Origin: Flavobacteriales bacterium
GTDB taxonomy: Bacteria > Bacteroidota > Bacteroidia > Flavobacteriales > UBA7312
Reading direction: 5' to 3'
DNA length: 64,000 bases
NCBI GenBank assembly: GCA_016779995.1
Contig: JADHMO010000002.1
Coordinates: 62,001-126,000, forward strand
The notes beneath the pieces were generated by a model. That model was not told the DNA's origin. It saw nothing but the letters and a program-made list of their open reading frames with translations, and ran no database searches. Positions 42,193-52,846 of the stretch are shown one piece after another. Made by a program: the position numbers and the translations under genes. Numbering within the stretch: the stretch's first letter is position 1; each line of letters opens with the position of its first letter.

Positions 42193-43239
42193 GTGAATTC
42201 TAAAAAGAGAATACTTGTTGCCCCATTAGATTGGGGCTTGGGACATGCCAGCCGATGCGTTGCTATTGCTAAGACTTTAGAAAAAGAAGGTTATGAAGTT
42301 GTGTTTGCTGCTAGTGGAAGACCTTTAGAACTGCTTATTCAAGAATTTCCAAAAAATGATTTCATTAAGCTAGAGGGTTATAATATTAGTTACCCTAAAA
42401 ATGGACAAATGGCACTGAGTATGCTTAGTCAATTGTTTAAAATTTGGAAAGGCATTCGCCTAGAACACAAACAATTGCAACAAATTATTGAGGATTACAA
42501 CATTGACGGCGTCATTTCGGATAACCGTTATGGCTTGTATTCCAAAAAAGTGCCTTGCGTATTTGTGACACATCAACTGCAAATACAATCGCCCATATTT
42601 TCTGAAAGCTTACAAAAGATTAACTTCAACTACATTCAAAAATTTGATGAGTGTTGGGTGCCCGACTCAGACACGCATCTGTTGAGTGGTCAACTTTCAA
42701 CAGCTAACAATAGCCCTTTCAAATGTCAATATATCGGTGCTTTATCCCGTTTTGAGAAGCTAGAAAAAACAGAACATTTAGATGTTCTAGCCATTGTATC
42801 TGGTCCAGAACCTCAACGTAGTATGTTTGAGGAATTACTTAAAAAACAGTTAATCGCATCTAAGCTTAAAGCGGTATTAGTTTTAGGCAAAACAGAAGAA
42901 AACAAGGAAGAAGAAATAGGAAACTTAAAGGTGGTTAGCCACCTCAACGCCAAGTCACTGAATCAGCAAATGGTCAATGCTAATGTTGTCATTAGTCGCT
43001 CGGGTTATTCTACAGTGATGGACATTGCCAAATTGCATAAAAAAGCCATTTTTGTACCAACCCCAGGACAAACAGAACAGCTTTATTTAGCCAAATACTT
43101 TTACGATAAAAATAGGGCTTTTGCTATGCATCAAAAGGATTTGGATATTCAACATGCCTTGCAAAAAGTGGAGCATATATCCCCATTAGAAAGTGACGAT
43201 TACCAAGTCAATTGGCAAGAATTGCTAAGCCTTTTTTAG
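42193..43239 (+). CDS. GT28-like glycosyltransferase family protein
   Basis: A 348-residue protein with a MurG-like two-domain layout. The N-terminal domain begins with RILVAPLDWGLGHASRCVAIA (GLGH loop), and the C-terminal half has the donor-site SRSGYSTVMDIAKLHKKAIFVPTPGQTEQ segment. It resembles the MJ1255-type predicted glycosyltransferases found across Bacteroidota and Archaea. The substrate is unknown. The start codon is GTG 42193, directly after a promoter box, and no ATG alternative exists near. It overlaps the histidine kinase gene tail to tail by 15 bases. Confidence 0.85.
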   Translation: MNSKKRILVAPLDWGLGHASRCVAIAKTLEKEGYEVVFAASGRPLELLIQEFPKNDFIKLEGYNISYPKNGQMALSMLSQLFKIWKGIRLEHKQLQQIIEDYNIDGVISDNRYGLYSKKVPCVFVTHQLQIQSPIFSESLQKINFNYIQKFDECWVPDSDTHLLSGQLSTANNSPFKCQYIGALSRFEKLEKTEHLDVLAIVSGPEPQRSMFEELLKKQLIASKLKAVLVLGKTEENKEEEIGNLKVVSHLNAKSLNQQMVNANVVISRSGYSTVMDIAKLHKKAIFVPTPGQTEQLYLAKYFYDKNRAFAMHQKDLDIQHALQKVEHISPLESDDYQVNWQELLSLF

Positions 43240-44250
43240 AGTAAATGAAAAGGTAGTTCCTACATTTTCAGTACTTCTGACATTGATGGTCTGTCGGTGC
43301 GCTTCTAAAATGTGCTTAACAATAGACAAGCCTAAGCCTGTGCCACCTGCATTTCTAGAACGGGACTTATCGACTCTATAAAATCGTTCAAACAATCGAG
43401 GCAAGTGTTGTGCTGGAATACCTGCACCATCATCAGCAATTTCTACTAATAAGTTATCGCCCATTTCAAAAAGACGCACTTTAGTGTGCCCACCTTCTTT
43501 ACCGTACTTAATGGAGTTTTCAATAAGGTTAATAAGTACTTGTGAAATTTTATCTCTATCTGCCTTAACAAAATTATTTGTTGACTGATTGTTGATACTT
43601 AAGCTAACGCTTCTCTTTTTAGCTTTCATCTCTAAAATATCAAATAGCTCTTGTATATGTTCAACGATATCCCAACGGGTAAACTCTAGTTCAAGTTGAT
43701 TGGATTCAATTTTAGAAATCATTTCCAAATCCTCTACAATATTTATCATTCTGTCTACACTTTTACTTGAGCGTTGAAGGTATTGCATATTGACATTTTC
43801 GTCTCGGATAGCACCGTCTATTAGTGTGTGTATATAACCTTGTATATTGAAAATAGGTGTCTTTAGTTCGTGGGAAACATTTCCCAAAAACTCCCTACGA
43901 AAAGACTCCATACTTTTCAGTTCTTCTATTTCTCTTTGACGTTCATTAATCAATTGGTCCACATCTTCGTCTACCTTGTCCAAATCTGACTCAACATCAT
44001 CACTAACACCTCTTTGTCGAGTCAGGGTTTTGTATATAACCTTAACTCTTTCGTGTACGTATTGCTTTAAAAAATAATACGAAATCAGGTAAACAGAAAG
44101 GAGTAATGAAACTGAAATTACTGCAATTTGCCAAGGCTGTATGTTGTTTTCAAACCATATACATATCAGAGCAAATAATATAAAAACGGGCACTGCTAGA
44201 GCAAGTGTCAGTGCAATTGCAATTTTTTTAGGCGTTGTCCATTGCATCAA
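43225..44250 (-). CDS. phoR: Sensor histidine kinase, PhoR-like
   Basis: A 341-residue kinase with two transmembrane helices (about 9-33 and 40-62) and almost no periplasmic domain, as in PhoR. A cytoplasmic linker leads to the HisKA domain with FLGNVSHELKTP (phospho-acceptor His127) and a HATPase domain (NLIENSIKYG N-box, ADDGAGIP G1, GGTGLGLSIVKHI G2). It overlaps the response-regulator gene by four bases and lies in front of phosphate-uptake genes, so it is called PhoR-like by context. There is no PAS domain that I could recognise. Confidence 0.85.
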   Translation of the reverse strand: MMQWTTPKKIAIALTLALAVPVFILFALICIWFENNIQPWQIAVISVSLLLSVYLISYYFLKQYVHERVKVIYKTLTRQRGVSDDVESDLDKVDEDVDQLINERQREIEELKSMESFRREFLGNVSHELKTPIFNIQGYIHTLIDGAIRDENVNMQYLQRSSKSVDRMINIVEDLEMISKIESNQLELEFTRWDIVEHIQELFDILEMKAKKRSVSLSINNQSTNNFVKADRDKISQVLINLIENSIKYGKEGGHTKVRLFEMGDNLLVEIADDGAGIPAQHLPRLFERFYRVDKSRSRNAGGTGLGLSIVKHILEAHRQTINVRSTENVGTTFSFTLKKA

Positions 44251-44927
44251 TATTCGAATTTATAGCCAACACCCTTTACGGTTTTGACATAGTGGTCAGC
44301 TAATTTTTCTCGCAATTTACGAATATGTACGTCAATAGTTCTATCACCTACTACAATGTCCATTCCCCATACTTTTTCAAGAATTTCTTCTCTAGTAAAT
44401 ACTTTGCCGGGCTTGGAAATCAATAACTTCAAAAGTTTAAATTCTTTTTTAGCAAAAATGACTTCTTGACCTTTGTAAGTAGTCAAATGTTTTTCTTTGT
44501 CAATGACAATATCTCCCAATTCAATAATGGAATTATTGTCTTGAGAAATACCTCGGCGTTTAAGTAATGCTTTTACCCTGCTTACTAGTACTTTAGGTCG
44601 GATTGGTTTGGTAATGTAGTCATCTGCACCAGCTTCAAAACCTGCTATTTGAGAATAGTCTTCTGAACGTGCCGTTAGAAAAGTAACAACTGTTTCTTTC
44701 AATGAGGGTATTTCTCTGATTTTTTCACAGGTAGTAATACCGTCCATATCTGGCATTTGAACATCTAGAATTATAAGGGAAGGTTGTTGTTGTTTTGCTA
44801 ATTCAATGGCCAAGACACCATTATTGGCAACGATAACATCATAACCTTCAGCACGTAAGTTATAACTTAGAAACTCTAGAATATCTTCCTCGTCATCAAC
44901 AACCAGAATTTTTATATTATCGTTCAT
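44247..44927 (-). CDS. phoB: Response regulator, PhoB/PhoP-like (OmpR family)
   Basis: A 226-residue regulator. The receiver domain has the acidic pair DDEED (11-15), phospho-acceptor Asp55 in LIILDVQMPDMDG and KPIRPKVL with the conserved Lys. The C-terminal winged-helix domain has FKLLKLLISKPGKVFTREEILEKVWG and DRTIDVHIRKLREKL. Direct repeats of TTAACA type with 11-base period lie upstream of itself/porin, pstS and PiT, fitting the binding pattern of this family. The gene is divergent from the porin gene and shares its upstream region. Confidence 0.87.
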   Translation of the reverse strand: MNDNIKILVVDDEEDILEFLSYNLRAEGYDVIVANNGVLAIELAKQQQPSLIILDVQMPDMDGITTCEKIREIPSLKETVVTFLTARSEDYSQIAGFEAGADDYITKPIRPKVLVSRVKALLKRRGISQDNNSIIELGDIVIDKEKHLTTYKGQEVIFAKKEFKLLKLLISKPGKVFTREEILEKVWGMDIVVGDRTIDVHIRKLREKLADHYVKTVKGVGYKFEY

Positions 44928-44934
44928 ACATATC

Positions 44935-44942
44935 CAAATTTA
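44935..44942 (-). promoter_or_regulatory. -7 box seven bases before the response regulator
   Basis: Minus-strand TAAATTTG, exact TAnnTTTG, ends seven bases before ATG 44927. A second possible box (TATTTTTG, 44950-44957) lies further upstream, so both a leaderless and a short-leader transcript are possible. Confidence 0.45.
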
Positions 44943-44983
44943 ATTTGTACAAAAATATCATATAAAGCCATTCATTTGAGTAA

Positions 44984-45011
44984 TTTACAATTTTTTAACA
45001 TAGACTTAATA
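44984..45011 (+). promoter_or_regulatory. Pho-box-like repeats upstream of porin
   Basis: TTTACA (44984), TTAACA (44995) and TTAATA (45006) are spaced exactly 11 bases apart. The last repeat starts 27 bases before the porin -7 box, an activator-type position. Being in a divergent region, it may also control the regulator. Confidence 0.6.
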
Positions 45012-45032
45012 TAAGACTAGTTAATGTAAACT

Positions 45033-45040
45033 TATATTTG
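45033..45040 (+). promoter_or_regulatory. -7 box for the porin gene
   Basis: TATATTTG, exact TAnnTTTG, 30 bases before ATG 45071. Confidence 0.55.
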
Positions 45041-45070
45041 CCCCAACAAAATAATAACCAATAATTTAAA

Positions 45071-46033
45071 ATGAAAAAAATCTTAAACGTATTAGCCTTT
45101 ACATTTATAGGCTTAACTGCAATGGCTCAAGGTCAGCCAAGTGCAAAAGTATTTTCTAATTTCAACTACAATCTTTCTGATGAAGATAATAACTTCAAAG
45201 CATTTGAAGTTAACAGAGCTTACTTAGGATATAGCTATGCATTAAGTGATGAATTCACTACAAAAATCACTTTCGATGTTGGCAACAACAGTGCAGGAAG
45301 CCAATACACTGCATTCCTAAAAATTGCTTCTGTAAGCTGGAAAGCTAATGACAATATGAATATCAATTTTGGTATGATTGGCACTAAGAATTTCAAATTT
45401 ATGGAAAAAACTTGGGGGCACAGATACATTTATAAGTCTTTACAAGACAAACATAAATGGGCTAGTTCGGCTGATGCTGGTGTTTCTGTTGATTACCAAT
45501 TCAATGATAAATTAAGTGTTGATGCTCAGGTTCTTAATGGCGAAGGTTATAAAAAAGAACAAGAAGCCAATGGTTTGTTCAGAGGTAGTGTTGGCTTAAC
45601 TTACGACGCTTCGGAAAATGTAGTAGTACGAGTAATAAGAGATGTTGTGCCAAGAGAATCTTATGGTGACAACGATGCCCACCAAAGTACAACTAGTGCT
45701 GCATTAGCATACAAAGGAGATGGCTTTAGCTTAGGTGCTGAATACAACCTTCAAGAAAATGCTAAAAATGTATTGGATCAAGAGCGTACAGGTATTTCTG
45801 CTTATGGTAGCTATAACTTAAATGATGGTATGTCATTGTTTGCCAGATACGATGAGTTAAGTTCAGAAAATGACTGGAACTTATCTAAAGACGGTACATT
45901 TATGATTGTCGGTGTACAAAAGCAAATGGTAAAGGGTTTAAAAGTAGCCTTAAACTACCAAAGCTGGACTGCAGCAACTGAAAATGCTGAAGCTGAAAGT
46001 TCAGTATTCATGAATTTGGAGTTTAAGTTTTAA
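45071..46033 (+). CDS. Outer-membrane porin, phosphate-selective OprO/OprP-like
   Basis: A 320-residue exported beta-barrel with signal peptide MKKILNVLAFTFIGLTAMAQ. The mature part consists of amphipathic strands (LGYSYALSDEFTTKITFDVG, SVDYQFNDKLSVDAQVLNGEGY) and ends in FMNLEFKF with the C-terminal Phe required for barrel insertion. The NGEGY and FGMIGTKNFKFMEK pattern resembles the phosphate-selective porin O/P family. Combined with the PhoB-like regulator next to it, the Pho-box-like repeats in front of it and pstS behind it, phosphate or polyphosphate uptake across the outer membrane is the likely role. Confidence 0.78.
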   Translation: MKKILNVLAFTFIGLTAMAQGQPSAKVFSNFNYNLSDEDNNFKAFEVNRAYLGYSYALSDEFTTKITFDVGNNSAGSQYTAFLKIASVSWKANDNMNINFGMIGTKNFKFMEKTWGHRYIYKSLQDKHKWASSADAGVSVDYQFNDKLSVDAQVLNGEGYKKEQEANGLFRGSVGLTYDASENVVVRVIRDVVPRESYGDNDAHQSTTSAALAYKGDGFSLGAEYNLQENAKNVLDQERTGISAYGSYNLNDGMSLFARYDELSSENDWNLSKDGTFMIVGVQKQMVKGLKVALNYQSWTAATENAEAESSVFMNLEFKF

Positions 46034-46056
46034 ACTTTTCTTTTAGTAAAATTTAA

Positions 46057-46078
46057 AAGCGAGGCTAAGTCCTCGCTT
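46057..46078 (+). terminator. Rho-independent terminator after the porin gene
   Basis: Stem AAGCGAGG / CCTCGCTT with loop CTAAGT, followed by a T-run. It separates the porin transcript from the pst operon. Confidence 0.9.
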
Positions 46079-46118
46079 TTTTTATTTACCATAATTGGCA
46101 AGCCCACAATTAACACTT

Positions 46119-46194
46119 TTTACAATTCCTTAACATTAGAGTTTTAGATTTTACAAATACTTAATATGAGCATAAGCTTTACTTTCAATTGACC
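46119..46194 (+). promoter_or_regulatory. Pho-box-like repeat pairs upstream of pstS
   Basis: Three pairs with 11-base spacing: TTTACA 46119/TTAACA 46130; TTTACA 46150/TTAATA 46161; TTTACT 46178/TTGACC 46189. The block TTAACATTAGA also occurs upstream of PiT. The array ends next to the pstS -7 box. Confidence 0.55.
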
Positions 46195-46197
46195 GTA

Positions 46198-46205
46198 TAT
46201 GTTTG
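46198..46205 (+). promoter_or_regulatory. -7 box for pstS
   Basis: TATGTTTG, exact TAnnTTTG, 28 bases before ATG 46234 and adjacent to the Pho-box-like array. Confidence 0.5.
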
Positions 46206-46233
46206 TACCATAATTTAAAACTATAAACACAAT

Positions 46234-47172
46234 ATGAAAACATTAGGAAAATTAATCTTAGGTATCGCAACAATTGCTCTTACTGCATGTGGAGGTGGCG
46301 AACAAAAATCCAATCAATCAGAACTTAGTGGAGCTATAAAAATTGATGGCTCAAGTACTGTCTATCCAATTACTGAAGCCGTAGCTGAAGAATTTAGAGT
46401 GATTCAACCTGCTGTGAATGTTACTGTTGGTGTTTCTGGAACTGGTGGTGGTTTTAAAAAGTTTATGAGAGGAGAGATAGACATCAACGATGCTTCTCGA
46501 CCTATCAAAGCTAAAGAAGCTACAGCCTGTGAAGAAATCGGTATCGGATACCAAGAATTGAGTGTTGCTTATGATGGTTTAGCAGTACTAATCAATCCTG
46601 AAAATGATTGGGTTGATTATTTAACTGTTGAAGAGTTGAAAAAAATATGGATACCTGAGGCACAAGGAAAAGTAATGTACTGGAGTGATGTCAGAGAAGG
46701 CTGGCCTAAAGAAGAACTTCACCTTTTTGGACCTGGTGTGGCATCAGGTACATACGACTATTTTGCCGAAGCTATTTGCGGTAAAAAAGTAGGAACACGA
46801 GGAGATTATACTGCCTCAGAAGATGACCATGTACTAGTTCAAGGTATAGCGACAGACAAAAATGCTTTAGGGTTTTTTGGATTGGCATACTATGAAGAAA
46901 ATAAAGACAAACTAAAATTGGTAGGTGTAGATAATGGAAATGGTGTAGTTATGCCATCTTTAGAAACGGTTGGAGATGGATCGTATGCTCCCCTTTCAAG
47001 ACCAATCTTTATATATGTAAGTAGTCTAGCTGTTCAAAAAGAAGAAGTTAAAGAATTTGTTTCATTCTATCTTGAAAGTGCTTCATCTTTAGTTTCAGAA
47101 GTAGGATACATTCCTCTTCCTGACACTGAGTACGCTAAAGAAATTGAAAAATTCAACGCCTTTGTAAAATAA
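46234..47172 (+). CDS. pstS: Phosphate ABC transporter substrate-binding lipoprotein
   Basis: A 312-residue periplasmic-side lipoprotein with signal peptide and lipobox LTAC at Cys19. The mature protein has the PstS features [18 protein letters not shown] (phosphate-binding turn), [23 protein letters not shown] and [16 protein letters not shown]. It captures phosphate and passes it to PstC-PstA. It is followed by pstC after 100 bases containing a perfect palindrome, which may set a higher PstS level than that of the membrane subunits. Confidence 0.95.
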
Positions 47173-47234
47173 AAAGCAATTTTTCATAGTAATAAAACTT
47201 TTTTTCATTGTGTAAAAGGTTAATTACTATTCAT

Positions 47235-47260
47235 ATCCAAGCAACCTAGGTTGCTTGGAT
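47235..47260. repeat. Perfect 26-base palindrome between pstS and pstC
   Basis: An exact inverted repeat centred on CCTAGG, able to form an 11-base-pair stem with a 4-base loop in RNA. No T-run follows (it is AATTAAAT), so it is probably not a classic terminator. A segmental mRNA stabiliser or a partial attenuator between pstS and pstCAB is more likely; a dimeric repressor site is the alternative. Confidence 0.85.
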
Positions 47261-47272
47261 AATTAAATAAAA

Positions 47273-48154
47273 ATGAATAGAAAAGCAAAAGAAAATATCG
47301 TTGAGTTCCTACTCAAAAGTAGTGCAGCAATTACCATACTCACTACATTAGGAATTATTTGGGTTCTCTTGTCGGAGAGCTTTACTTTTTTTGAGGAAGT
47401 TTCAATAGTAGATTTTCTTACTGACGACCAATGGACACCCTTATTTGCTAACAAGCATTTTGGGATTATGCCACTTATTTCTGGTACATTGTTGACTACA
47501 TTTATTGCTGTTTCTGTTGCCCTACCTGTTGGACTTACTATAGCTGTATATCTTAGCGAATATGCCCCTAAAAAATTTAGAAAAACCGTAAAGCCTTTAC
47601 TTGAAGTTTTAGCCGCAGTGCCAACGGTTGTTTACGGGTTTTTTGCTCTAATGGTAGTGACTCCTTTTCTACAAAAGCTAATTCCTGAAATGGCTGGTTT
47701 CAACGCTTTGTCAGCAGGTATTGTAATGGGAATAATGATTATTCCTTTTGTTAGTTCGCTTAGTGAAGATGCTCTTCAAGCGGTACCAAAATCTTTAAGA
47801 AATGCCTCCTACGGACTGGGTTCTACACGCTTTCAGACAGCTTTCAAAGTTATGGTACCTGCTGCTTCATCAGGTATCATTGTATCTGTGATATTAGCCT
47901 TTTCAAGAGCTATTGGCGAAACTATGATTGTTGCCATAGCAGCAGGTCAACAACCAAGATTAACAGCCAACCCTTTAGTTCCTATTGAAACTATTACAGC
48001 ATACATCGTTCAAGTCAGTTTAGGCGATGTCCCTCATGGCTCATTGGAATATCGAACAATATTTGCTGCTGGTATGACCTTATTTGTTTTCACATTTATT
48101 TTAAATAATATCAGTTTTTGGATAAGAAAGAAATTTAGAGAACAATATGACTAA
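47273..48154 (+). CDS. pstC: Phosphate ABC transporter permease PstC
   Basis: A 293-residue inner-membrane permease with six hydrophobic segments and the ABC-permease EAA-type loop ([34 protein letters not shown]). The [15 protein letters not shown]-like start region and the [12 protein letters not shown] segment are typical of PstC. It overlaps pstA by eight bases. The gene order pstS-pstC-pstA-pstB-phoU is standard. Confidence 0.94.
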
Positions 48155-49004
48155 TTCAAGAAAAAATAGAATCAAAGACAAGGTGTTTGAGTACGTCGGA
48201 ATTGTATGTACCTTTTTAGGACTTGTGATTTTAGCCATATTTATTGGCAATATATTAGTCGATGGTCTTGGAAGAATCGATTGGGATTTTATGAAAAGTT
48301 TACCCTCAAGAAAAGCAGAAAAAGCAGGTATATATACAGCATGGACAGGCTCATTATGGATTTTAGGATTTACTACTCTTATTGCTTTTCCACTAGCAGT
48401 AGCAGCAGGAGTTTATCTAGAAGAATATGGTAAAAAGAGTCGATTAGCCTCGTTACTTGAAGTTAATATATCCAACTTAGCTGGTGTACCATCTATCATT
48501 TACGGACTACTTGGTCTTGAAATATTTGTCCGAGTTTTCAAGATGGGGAATAGTGTTTTGGCTGGTGCCTTCACATTAGCTCTTCTTATTTTACCTATCA
48601 TCATAGTAGCTACAAGAGAAGCTATCAGAGCAGTACCTCAAAGTATTCGAGCTGCATCTTTTGGTTTAGGTGCAACAAAATGGCAAACGATATGGCATCA
48701 GGTTTTGCCAAGTGCTATGGGTGGAATCCTAACGGGCGTCATATTAGCTATTTCTAGAGCTGTTGGCGAAACGGCTCCTTTAATTGTAGTTGGCGCATTG
48801 GCTTATGTGCCATTTACACCAAGTTCTCCTATGGACGAATTTACGGTAATGCCTATTCAAATATTTAATTGGGTATCTAGGCCTCAGCACGGTTTTATCA
48901 TCAATGCCGCCGCCGCTATAATCATACTACTAATCATTACATTTATTATGAACGGACTGGCCGTTTATCTTAGAAATAAATGGGAAAAGAAAATCAGTTG
49001 GTAA
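48147..49004 (+). CDS. pstA: Phosphate ABC transporter permease PstA
   Basis: A 285-residue six-helix permease partner of PstC. It contains the [18 protein letters not shown] start region, [17 protein letters not shown] and the EAA loop ([34 protein letters not shown]). Its stop shares one base with the pstB start (TAATG). PstC and PstA form the transmembrane channel energised by PstB. Confidence 0.95.
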
Positions 49005-49771
49005 TGACAACAAAAAAAGAATACATTTTAGAAACTAAAGCACTTGATGTTTTTTATGGCGAAATGCAAGCCCTCAAAAATATCAATATGCATATTGAAA
49101 AAAATAAGGTTACTGCTTTTATTGGTCCTTCAGGATGTGGGAAATCTACCTTTCTTAGAGTCTTTAACAGAATGAATGACTACATCGAATCGTACAGAAT
49201 GGAAGGTGAAGTGTTTATGCAAGGAGACAACATCTATGGCAAAAACATAAAAGTAGATGAATTGAGAAAAAATATTGGAATGGTATTTCAAAAACCAAAT
49301 CCATTTCCTAAAAGCATCTATGACAATGTTACCTACGGCTTAGTCATTCAAGGTATTAAAGACAAAGCCTTTTTGAAAGAACGAGTAGAAAAATCTCTAA
49401 AACAAGCTGCTCTTTGGGATGAAGTCAAAGACGATTTGAAAAAATCTGCTTTGGCACTTTCAGGTGGTCAGCAACAGCGTTTGTGTATTGCACGAGCTTT
49501 GGCTGTAGAGCCATCTGTCTTGTTGATGGACGAACCTACTTCTGCCCTAGACCCAATATCAACAGCAAAAGTGGAAGAATTAATCCACGAACTGAAGGAA
49601 AAATACAGTATCGTTATAGTCACTCACAATATGCAACAAGCCAGTAGAGTAAGTGATAATACAGCCTTTTTCTATATGGGAGATTTGATAGAATTTGGCA
49701 AAACTGAAGAAATTTTTAGAAACCCTCAAAAAGAACGTACCCAAAACTACATTACAGGTAGATTTGGATAA
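49004..49771 (+). CDS. pstB: Phosphate ABC transporter ATP-binding protein PstB
   Basis: A 255-residue ABC ATPase with Walker [10 protein letters not shown] (41-49), the PstB-typical [12 protein letters not shown] segment after it, Q-loop [21 protein letters not shown], signature LSGGQQQR and Walker [14 protein letters not shown]. The start is ATG 49004, overlapping the pstA stop by one base. An upstream in-frame ATG at 48980 lies inside pstA and would add a non-conserved stretch. The phoU gene follows after 12 bases. Confidence 0.96.
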
Positions 49772-49783
49772 TCCCTATTTATT

Positions 49784-50443
49784 ATGACACAATTAGAGCA
49801 AGAAATTAATGAACTAAGAAAGGAACTGTTTAATATGTTTTTGGCAGTAAACAACCAATTGCTAAAAAGTGAAAAAGCACTTTTAGAGTTTGATAAAGAT
49901 TTGGCAGCAGAAATAACAAATGCTGAAAAAAGAATCAATTCTCTAGAATTGAAAATTGATAGAGATTGTGAAAATATACTGGCTTTGTATTCTCCAGTTG
50001 CTGTAGATTTACGCTTTGTTCTTTCGGTCTACAAGATCAATCATGAATTGGAACGAATAGCAGATATCGCTGATGGTATAGCCAATTATGTGAATAATGT
50101 AAAAGCACCATTTCCAAAGAAGGCCATCAAGAATATTAAAATTGAAGAAATGTTCTCTCAATGCCAAGCTATGATGGACAATGTTATTGAAGCTTTTGAA
50201 AAAGAAGATACCAAAATAGCACGTAGAGTTTTCAAACAAGACGAATTATTAAACACTATTAACTCAGATTGTAGTAATGCTATTATAGAAAACTACGATG
50301 AGAAAAATGCAGAAGCATTATTTTATCTTTTATCATGTGTAAGAAAATTAGAAAGAGCTGGAGACTTAACAAAAAATATTGCTGAAGAGCTTATTTTTTC
50401 TATAGAATCCAAAGTCATAAAGCACCGAAAAAATAAGCGATAA
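49784..50443 (+). CDS. phoU: Phosphate transport regulator PhoU
   Basis: A 219-residue helical protein with the two PhoU repeats. Each has the metal-binding E(/D)xxxD pattern: DCENILALYSPVAVDLRFVLSVYKINHELERIADIADGIAN in the first half, and a LSCVRKLERAGDLTKNIAEEL motif in the second. PhoU links Pst activity to PhoR signalling and limits phosphate uptake. It is the last gene of the pst operon; a Pho-box-like array begins nine bases after its stop. Confidence 0.93.
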   Translation: MTQLEQEINELRKELFNMFLAVNNQLLKSEKALLEFDKDLAAEITNAEKRINSLELKIDRDCENILALYSPVAVDLRFVLSVYKINHELERIADIADGIANYVNNVKAPFPKKAIKNIKIEEMFSQCQAMMDNVIEAFEKEDTKIARRVFKQDELLNTINSDCSNAIIENYDEKNAEALFYLLSCVRKLERAGDLTKNIAEELIFSIESKVIKHRKNKR

Positions 50444-50451
50444 AAAATCGC

Positions 50452-50490
50452 TTAACAATTTCTTAACATTAGATTTACTTTCAATTAACT
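50452..50490 (+). promoter_or_regulatory. Pho-box-like array of four 11-base repeats before PiT
   Basis: TTAACA 50452, TTAACA 50463, TTTACT 50474, TTAACT 50485, each exactly 11 bases apart. A near-consensus -7 box (TTCATTTG, 50511-50518) starts 26 bases after the last repeat begins, the same distance as at the porin gene. This is the clearest of the three arrays. Confidence 0.72.
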
Positions 50491-50536
50491 TGGAGTGTGG
50501 TTTGTTTGTGTTCATTTGTATAATAATATTAACACA

Positions 50537-50629
50537 ATGATTATGGAAACTACTCAAAACAAATTTGACATTAGCAAAGTATTATACGTTGTTATTATGG
50601 TAGCAGTATATACTATAGCTGTACTCTAG
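50537..50629 (+). CDS. 30-aa membrane peptide upstream of PiT
   Basis: A 30-residue ORF with a polar N-terminal part (MIMETTQNKFDIS) and one predicted transmembrane helix (VLYVVIMVAVYTIAVL). It is the first ORF after the Pho-box-like array and its promoter, and lies 30 bases before the PiT gene, so it should be co-transcribed with it. A second in-frame ATG (50543) follows. No homologue is recognised. By analogy only, E. coli has a similar-sized peptide (MgtS) that acts on the phosphate symporter PitA. Coding status rests on context. Confidence 0.5.
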   Translation: MIMETTQNKFDISKVLYVVIMVAVYTIAVL

Positions 50630-50659
50630 TCAATATCTTCAATAACATATTTTTTTTCT

Positions 50660-51802
50660 ATGAAAAAATTAATGTCTAAGTTCAGTTACCCAACTAACTT
50701 ATGGATTCATAAAGGTGAGAGAAATTTTCTTTCTTTCATAGTTATCGCATTTATACTTGCTATGTTCGTTACACCATATCCTCAATTAGGGATGTGGGTA
50801 GGTTTTATTTTTGCGGCTTATGCTGCTGTTGCCAACGACAGTATCCAAACTCTAGGAACGTTCATAGCATCAAATCAAGATAAAAAATGGTGGGTACTAT
50901 GGATATTTATTGGTGGTATATTTTTATTTACCGTCGGTTACTCATGGTATAACTTTGCTGGTGATGTTAGTCATGGGCGACTCATGGCTAAAGGTTTTGA
51001 TAAAAGTCCTACCAATTTTCACTTTCTGCAAATAGCTGCCCCAATATTTTTATTAATTCTTACTCGTTTAAGAATGCCTGTTTCTACGACATTCATTCTA
51101 CTTACTTCATTTGCTGCTGCACCAGCCGCAGTTGGTAAAGTACTTGCTAAGAGTATGAGTGGATATGTTTTAGCCTTTTTTATGGGTTTCATTATTTTTA
51201 TGCTCATCTCCAAATGGGCTAAGAAAAAATTTGTTGGAGAAGCCAAATTTGGTTGGACTATAGCACAATGGATTACTAGTGGTACATTATGGTCAGTATG
51301 GCTCATGCAAGATGCCGCAAATATTGCCGTTTACTTACCAAGAAGTTTAAGCTTCATGCAGTTTATGGGTTTCGCTGGGGTTGTGTTTATCGGCTTAGGC
51401 TTACTACTTTTTTACAAAGGTGGAAGAATACAAAAAATTGTTACAGAGAAATCAGTAGTTACCGATGTACGTTTCGCTACAATAATTGACTTTATTTATT
51501 GCATCATATTGTTTTATTTCAAACTCTATTCTCAAGTACCAATGAGCACAACATGGGTATTTATCGGTCTTTTAGGAGGCCGTGAAGTGGCTATGGCAAT
51601 AAGAAATTCTGGAGAAAATAGCACAGCTACAGCTTTTAAATTATTAGTTAAAGATTTCTCATATGCACTCATAGGTCTTATTATTTCTATCGCAATTGCT
51701 ATAGGTGTAAACGACCAACTTACGTTCAGCTCTATGTTAACAGAAATACCTAAAGAGTTTGTTTCAGGATTAGCAAAGTTCTTTGGTAAGTTAGGGTTTT
51801 AA
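50660..51802 (+). CDS. PiT-family inorganic phosphate transporter
   Basis: A 380-residue transporter with about ten hydrophobic segments. It has the PiT signature in altered form (YAAVANDSIQTLGTFIASN near residue 52-70; most PiT proteins have GANDxANA) and the second-half equivalent VSTTFILLTSFAAAPAAVG, plus STTWVFIGLLGGREVAMAIR. It imports phosphate by cation symport with low affinity. It lies behind the four-repeat Pho-box-like array, implying induction together with pst. A strong terminator follows. Start ATG 50660 (MKKLMSKF). Confidence 0.88.
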   Translation: MKKLMSKFSYPTNLWIHKGERNFLSFIVIAFILAMFVTPYPQLGMWVGFIFAAYAAVANDSIQTLGTFIASNQDKKWWVLWIFIGGIFLFTVGYSWYNFAGDVSHGRLMAKGFDKSPTNFHFLQIAAPIFLLILTRLRMPVSTTFILLTSFAAAPAAVGKVLAKSMSGYVLAFFMGFIIFMLISKWAKKKFVGEAKFGWTIAQWITSGTLWSVWLMQDAANIAVYLPRSLSFMQFMGFAGVVFIGLGLLLFYKGGRIQKIVTEKSVVTDVRFATIIDFIYCIILFYFKLYSQVPMSTTWVFIGLLGGREVAMAIRNSGENSTATAFKLLVKDFSYALIGLIISIAIAIGVNDQLTFSSMLTEIPKEFVSGLAKFFGKLGF

Positions 51803-51822
51803 CAAGCACATATTTTAGTTAC

Positions 51823-51850
51823 AAAAAGCTCCTTTCGAAAGGAGCTTTTT
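51823..51850. terminator. Rho-independent terminator after PiT
   Basis: Stem AAAAAGCTCC / GGAGCTTTTT with inner TTTCGAAA, followed by a further T-run. It closes the phosphate island. Confidence 0.93.
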
Positions 51851-51865
51851 TTTTACCTTAGTACT

Positions 51866-52846
51866 ATGCATTGGGTTTTTGATAACAACATCTCTTTCGA
51901 AGAAAAAGCACTACAAGTTTTTAGACTTCAAGCCGAAGAATGTTTACTTTATAAACACTATTTGGACCTTTTAAAAATTGATATTGATAAGATTAACTCC
52001 ATTCAAAAAATACCTTTTTTACCCATAGAGTTTTTTAAATCTAATACCATATTGTCAAAGAATAAAACTGCACAAATAACATTTAGCAGTAGTGGCACAA
52101 CAGGTCAACAACGCAGTGAACATCATATCGCTGAACTGTCTATATATGAAGATAGCTTCAGACTTGGTTTCGACTATTTCTATGGCAATCCTAAAGACTA
52201 TCGCATTTTTGCACTACTACCCTCATACCTTGAAAGAGAAGGCTCATCATTAGTTTATATGTGCAACCAACTCATAAAAGATAGTCAGCACCCACAAAGT
52301 GGGTTTTACCTCAACAACCTCAAAGATTTATCAGAAATTTTATCTCAAACTAGTGATAGGAAAACATTACTCATAGGTGTCAGTTATGCACTATTAGACC
52401 TTGCCGAACAATTTCCTCAACACTTGAACAATACTATTGTAATGGAGACGGGAGGCATGAAAGGTAAACGCCAAGAAATGATAAAAAGTGAATTGCATCA
52501 AAAGCTAAAAACCTCTTTTCAACTACAGCAAATACACTCCGAATATGGTATGACTGAATTGCTTTCTCAGGCTTACTCTAAAGGAAATGGAATCTTTGAA
52601 AACCCTCCTTGGATGAAGGTATTAATTAGAGATACTGAAGATCCCTTTCAAATTGTTTCTCACCACCAAACAGGTGGACTTAATATCATTGACTTAGCCA
52701 ACATTAACTCATGTTCATTTATTGCAACTCAAGATTTGGGGAAATCACTAGATGATACTAACTTTGAACTCAAAGGTCGTTTTGACCAAGCAGACCTTAG
52801 AGGCTGTAACTTATTGCTAGAAGAAAATGATTATACGAAAAGCTAA
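51866..52846 (+). CDS. LuxE/PaaK-like acyl-activating enzyme
   Basis: A 326-residue member of the adenylate-forming (ANL-like) acyl-protein synthetase group related to LuxE. It has the phosphate-binding TFSSSGTTGQQRSEH loop (about residues 72-86), GGMKGKRQEM, the HSEYGMTELLSQAY motif that in ANL enzymes contacts AMP, and the ATQDLGK / KGRFDQAD hinge near the end. It lacks the typical C-terminal lid domain, like LuxE. No luciferase genes are present, so the acyl acceptor and pathway are unknown. A near-consensus box (TACCTTAG) ends four bases before ATG 51866. It overlaps the acetyltransferase gene by 20 bases. Confidence 0.85.
   Translation: MHWVFDNNISFEEKALQVFRLQAEECLLYKHYLDLLKIDIDKINSIQKIPFLPIEFFKSNTILSKNKTAQITFSSSGTTGQQRSEHHIAELSIYEDSFRLGFDYFYGNPKDYRIFALLPSYLEREGSSLVYMCNQLIKDSQHPQSGFYLNNLKDLSEILSQTSDRKTLLIGVSYALLDLAEQFPQHLNNTIVMETGGMKGKRQEMIKSELHQKLKTSFQLQQIHSEYGMTELLSQAYSKGNGIFENPPWMKVLIRDTEDPFQIVSHHQTGGLNIIDLANINSCSFIATQDLGKSLDDTNFELKGRFDQADLRGCNLLLEENDYTKS

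Follow-up and report, generated by a model that had tools for sequence, protein, structure and literature searches.

A conserved single-helix membrane peptide, a candidate accessory subunit of an apparently Pho-regulated PiT-type transporter in marine Flavobacteriales

Introduction

Gene finders easily overlook small membrane proteins, and phosphate transporters of the PiT type are usually regarded as constitutive and of low affinity. The single-helix proteins AcrZ, MgtR and MgtU each target a transporter, in the role of modulator, degradation adaptor or stabilizer, and the 31-aa MgtS acts on PitA of E. coli (PMC10710835). Phosphate transporters also work with cognate regulators of the PhoU/PitR/NptA type, namely PhoU with Pst, PitR with PitA and a PhoU domain with NptA, while the uncharacterized membrane protein SCO1846 adjoins pitA in many genomes lacking PitR (PMC13170248). 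Here, a short ORF located upstream of a PiT gene in a 64-kb stretch of DNA (the window) from a marine-type flavobacterium with a genome of 1.96 Mb is compared with these systems.

Results

Organization of the phosphate locus

The window harbors a complete phosphate locus with, in this order, phoR-like and phoB-like genes on the reverse strand, an OprP-like porin gene, the pstS-pstC-pstA-pstB-phoU cluster, a Pho-box array, the peptide ORF, a PiT gene and a hairpin (Table 1). Within the pst cluster, pstC matches Pfam BPD_transp_1, and pstS, pstA and pstB were named from sequence and syntenic matches. The neighbors of the phoBR operon in F. johnsoniae, a glycosyltransferase and OprP (PMC8115612), equal those found in the window, supporting the gene names assigned. 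A preliminary description of this DNA had placed a 30-codon ORF between a Pho-box-like array and a PiT gene. This order is confirmed, with TTAACA repeats from 50452, an ORF at 50537-50629 and PiT from 50660. The ORF can indeed be read from an in-frame alternative ATG at 50537, giving 30 aa, but the relatives share a start at the position corresponding to 50543 (METTQ...), which makes the conserved product 28 aa long.

Table 1. Features of the phosphate locus in the window
Feature	Position	Strand	Basis
phoR-like kinase	43225-44250	-	ORF
phoB-like regulator	44247-44927	-	ORF; 39/40 clade-A PiT loci contain phoB/phoR
Further Pho-box array, upstream of porin/phoB	44984..45011	+	Motif search, PWM
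OprP-like porin	45071..46033	+	ORF; name by analogy with OprP of F. johnsoniae
pstS Pho boxes, at 46119 and 46150	46119..46166	+	Motif search, PWM
pstS, pstC, pstA, pstB	46234..49771	+	ORFs
phoU	49784..50443	+	TIGR02135, 160 bits, above cut-off
Pho-box array: TTAACA 50452-50457, TTAACA 50463-50468, TTTACT 50474-50479, TTAACT 50485-50490	50452..50490	+	Sequence
Bacteroidota -7-like element TTCATTTG, ~25 nt before ORF	50511..50518	+	Sequence; suggestive only
28-aa single-helix membrane peptide METTQNKFDISKVLYVVIMVAVYTIAVL	50543..50629	+	37 distinct homologues; Ka/Ks ~0.02-0.12; Tyr invariant, Ser 36/37
PiT-type phosphate transporter, 380 aa, divergent clade	50660..51802	+	Weak PHO4 match, model, fold match, clade support 100/99
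Terminator-like hairpin, GCTCCTTTCGAAAGGAGC then T-run, after PiT	51825..51854	+	Read from sequence

The PiT-type transporter

The product of the gene downstream of the ORF scores 14.4 bits against Pfam PHO4, below the curated cut-off of 33.7; no PHO4 match above the Pfam cut-off was recovered in the search of the genome, and a phmmer search of the PDB with the protein gave no match. Its identification as PiT, as advanced in the preliminary description, nevertheless stands by fold. The structure model (pTM 0.80) retrieved TmPiT, a sodium-dependent phosphate transporter (PDB 6L85), as the only Foldseek match in the PDB with E ≤ 0.001 (5.8e-4, probability 1.00), and the two share the PiT fold at a modest global TM score of 0.49. 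The label "PiT-type" is a fair one, transport itself being a predicted function.

A large clade of PiT-like proteins from Bacteroidota, Balneolota and other groups is missed by both the PHO4 curated cut-off and NCBIfam. The subset comprising the transporter of the window is referred to here as clade A. In some of its members (L106, L108, L112; L081, L090) the loop near residue 97-100 is extended by an insertion, about 20 to more than 100 residues long. In one genome (G072:C3:203720-204966) PiT is broken by frameshifts or stops, which may reflect an assembly error or a decaying gene, and the upstream peptide ORF is still open.

Pho boxes and transcription

The array upstream of the peptide begins just after the phoU stop and has an 11-bp period, and its exact form TTAACA-N5-TTAACA occurs only there in the 64 kb. 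A PWM trained on the sORF-PiT promoters was scanned over the window, and scores above 12 were obtained at only five sites: the peptide array and two each in the pstS and phoB/porin promoters. Since all five are Pho-promoter sites, the earlier claim of a Pho-box array is upheld, and direct-repeat Pho boxes are common to the peptide, phoB and pst promoters. Two TTAACA-like hexamers 11 bp apart are also present in all 37 distinct peptide upstream regions, 59-100 nt before the start. Together with the specificity of the PWM, this makes PhoB binding a well-supported prediction. The Bacteroidota -7 consensus is TAnnTTTG; besides the element of the window, most relatives, inspected by eye, have an ATTTG-like element at a comparable position.

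Five loci combine a gap of 142-197 nt between peptide and PiT with a second Pho box (p ≤ 0.004 each), placed 65-76 nt upstream of PiT. Three of these loci (L082, L098, L109) have a terminator-like hairpin between the two genes, and the other two (L085, L112) only the second box. In such split loci the peptide gene appears to be a Pho-regulated transcription unit of its own. Three of the four clade-A PiT copies lacking the peptide (L088, L103 [MED1094], L099 [AG-903-K14]) also lack a Pho box. MED1094 holds two near-identical PiT-phoB copies.

Conservation of the peptide

PiT homologues were retrieved from relatives, and inspection of the DNA upstream yielded 37 distinct peptide sequences. An ORF of 25-33 codons is present upstream of PiT in nearly all relatives read, and its product, 25-33 aa long, has a single hydrophobic helix of about 16-18 hydrophobic residues, well within the size of single-helix transporter accessory proteins (up to about 50 residues, one hydrophobic helix). 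Searches of the peptide against Pfam and NCBIfam gave no match above cut-off in the former and none in the latter, and, as a 28-residue helix, the peptide does not have a PhoU fold.

The ORF represents a genuine gene, conserved and under purifying selection. Close pairs have Ka/Ks values of ~0.02-0.12, and codon-position entropy (1.08/0.57/1.33) is lowest at the second position and highest at the third. The peptides follow the pattern [D/E]-[I/L]-S-x-x-[L/V/I]-Y-x-x-I-M-x-x-V-[F/Y]-x-x-A, in which the Tyr is invariant and one Ser occurs in 36 of the 37. Conserved positions cluster on one face of the helix (permutation p 0.002-0.0045), as would be expected for a packing face. Conservation of the frame upstream of pit in relatives had been set beforehand as a check on the preliminary description, and both frame and sequence are kept in several families of marine Flavobacteriales, which are uncultivated; the peptide was not found without clade-A PiT.

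Occurrence of the peptide-PiT pair

A profile of the peptide matched 34 of 248 genomes of the order at E < 1e-5, with a 35th (G230) at 0.008. In all 35 the gene lies directly upstream of a clade-A PiT on the same strand, and among the 248 no convincing match was obtained in any genome without clade-A PiT. Conversely, the peptide occurs in 35 of the 37 genomes with clade-A PiT, the exceptions being G051 and G092. A class-wide search of 395 genomes with the 35-row profile returned the window's own copy as the only convincing match, and four further weak matches (E 0.001-0.01) are at the chance level for 395 genomes; more distant PiT relatives are common in this set. Among named genomes, the peptide was found in 36 of 40 clade-A PiT loci and in none of 40 clade-B loci (Balneolaceae, Cytophagales-type and others), although these PiTs lacking the peptide show 51-64% identity. 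The peptide is thus tied one-to-one, and exclusively, to a single transporter clade. Two locus records titled Euryarchaeota (L076, L094), probably mislabelled metagenome bins, carry a typical flavobacterial peptide-PiT locus.

Clade A received support of 100/99 in the tree and its members lacking the peptide are nested within it, which makes the pair ancestral, with about two losses of the peptide. Spacing between peptide and PiT has a median of 32 nt. The peptide gene stays just upstream of PiT whatever the placement of phoBR, and PhoB orthologues in genomes without clade-A PiT come without the peptide, indicating that it tracks PiT and not PhoB.

Phosphate sensing genes

phoB or phoR is present in nearly all clade-A loci (39/40) and in few clade-B loci (4/40), and a porin adjoins clade-A PiT in 23 of the 40. 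In the 37 clade-A PiT genomes a PhoU domain and PstC were each detected in 6, and the PitR/DUF47 family in none. Relatives without clade-A PiT have a PhoU domain in 13 of 18 cases, a difference that persists between high-quality genomes (3/12 versus 7/8; Fisher p 1.4e-4 overall and 0.02 for the high-quality set, shared ancestry being ignored in both). Three such relatives were read; in them the slot next to phoBR and porin holds pst-phoU, an NptA-PhoU fusion that has its own Pho box, or both.

This slot is modular (window 43225-52846; L070; L162; L163; L164), accommodating pst-phoU, NptA-PhoU (569-570 aa) or peptide-PiT, and each cassette has its own Pho box. In 31 of the 37 clade-A PiT genomes (e.g. 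G006, G034, G042, G050) PhoBR and Pho boxes co-exist with no detectable PhoU domain.

Discussion

The reading favored here, with a probability of roughly 0.6, is that the peptide is a dedicated, Pho-induced single-helix accessory subunit of the adjacent PiT, to which it is predicted to bind. Under phosphate starvation PhoBR would become active, PhoB would bind the TTAACA array and peptide and PiT would be co-induced. Provided that the ORF is translated at a suitable level, the peptide (25-33 residues, 28 in the window) would then insert in the inner membrane, where its conserved face (Ser, Tyr, Ile/Met, Val, Ala) may pack on PiT and stabilize it or tune its transport, for a net effect that would be positive or tuning. 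Counted in favor of an accessory subunit are the tie to PiT, purifying selection, conservation on one face, the Pho boxes and the split loci; counted against it are the four clade-A loci lacking the peptide and the clade-B loci, all of which lack it. When peptide and PiT were modeled with AlphaFold as one chain, linked by stop read-through, the pLDDT of the peptide was only ~50, too low for a confident placement. The genomic tie alone would suit a stabilizer, an inhibitor or a signaling adaptor and does not separate them.

Readings in which the product has no role find little room. Short ORFs are common, and dozens of others are listed near this one, yet the probability of a chance ORF is negligible, since conservation across families and the low Ka/Ks of close pairs already refute it. 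A leader peptide or attenuator, whose translation would control PiT and whose product would have no function, might be suspected from a short ORF standing right before the main gene at such a short median distance, but is very improbable. RNA structure at the ORF is not unusual (z 0.32), no Rfam leader or riboswitch was found there, and it is residues, not codons, that are conserved. In addition, some loci have separate promoters and terminator-like hairpins, which indicates that the peptide is kept as a gene of its own and argues strongly against a leader. Selection on residues, split loci and the lack of RNA structure were the grounds for rejecting a cis-acting element with an irrelevant product.

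Other readings assign the peptide a different target or effect. It could substitute for PhoU by coupling PiT to the PhoR kinase, with PiT and peptide together reporting phosphate supply; the peptide, paired with PiT, would then supply the accessory otherwise lacking and let PhoR read the phosphate flux that passes through PiT. This is a tentative and rather doubtful option. Most clade-A PiT genomes lack PhoU and PstC and all lack PitR, yet the module lies beside phoB/phoR; relatives without clade-A PiT mostly have PhoU, and in the same slot Pst-PhoU or NptA-PhoU is found; and transporter-specific accessory regulators of PhoR have been experimentally established in other systems (PMC13170248). 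The peptide, however, has almost no soluble part with which to contact a kinase, it is retained in genomes with Pst-PhoU, that of the window included, and it is not indispensable, since G051 and G092 lack both peptide and PhoU and keep phoB. Strict replacement of PhoU is not supported as a rule without exception, as six clade-A PiT genomes have a PhoU domain and the two genomes lacking the peptide have none. An effect on PhoR could also take the form of feedback, the transcript being merely shared with PiT. MgrB, a 47-aa PhoP-regulated protein that inhibits PhoQ (PMC8404706), offers a precedent, and both the adjacency of phoB/phoR in 39 of 40 loci and the Pho boxes agree with it. Such feedback is quite improbable, given that genomes with PhoB orthologues but no clade-A PiT have no peptide and that the gene keeps its place upstream of PiT in every phoBR arrangement. 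Finally, the peptide could be a brake on PiT, limiting uptake or metal-phosphate leakage, as MgtS is similar in size and in target family (PMC10710835). This too is unlikely: there is no sequence similarity to MgtS, and the apparent co-induction with PiT at phosphate starvation, when braking is least useful, renders a purely inhibitory effect on a phosphate importer less likely.

The peptide is paired with an apparently starvation-regulated transporter, unlike the usual view of PiT as constitutive, and the pair offers a natural test of single-helix control over secondary transporters. PhoBR genomes without PhoU or PitR pose the question of what informs PhoR of phosphate. If the doubtful role as PhoU substitute were true, these marine flavobacteria would possess a minimal, non-PhoU form of phosphate sensing.

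Compared with known systems, the peptide resembles MgtS, likewise a tiny membrane protein of one helix, whose target belongs to the PiT family (PMC10710835). The preliminary description had seen no homology to MgtS and proposed a convergent role; hhalign comparison of the family profile with MgtS agrees on the former (probability 0.9%, one column aligned), and of the latter the pairing of a small single-helix protein with a PiT-family transporter stands, whereas inhibition as by MgtS is not specifically supported. In the stretch of E. coli DNA that was read, MgtS is not beside pitA, whereas peptide and PiT of the window are obligate neighbors, and the peptide differs further in its predicted Pho-box control. 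MgrB is likewise a small membrane protein in a two-component regulon that feeds back on that system, but acts on the kinase, while the peptide is distributed with PiT and not with PhoB. The PhoU, PitR and NptA regulators are each strictly tied to one phosphate transporter, as is the peptide, which is tied to the phoBR locus as well; they are soluble PhoU-fold proteins or domains, and the peptide a lone membrane helix. SCO1846 is also encoded by a small membrane protein gene beside pitA in genomes without PitR, but is a different protein, about one third of the size of PhoU and so roughly twice as large as the peptide or more. AcrZ, MgtR and MgtU share with the peptide a single transmembrane helix and a length of tens of residues (PMC10710835); their transporter classes and sequences are other than those of the peptide, whose binding is a prediction. 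The peptide is therefore of a kind already known, that of single-helix transporter accessory proteins such as AcrZ, MgtS and MgtU (PMC10710835), within which its family and the strict, Pho-boxed pairing with PiT appear to be new and previously undescribed.
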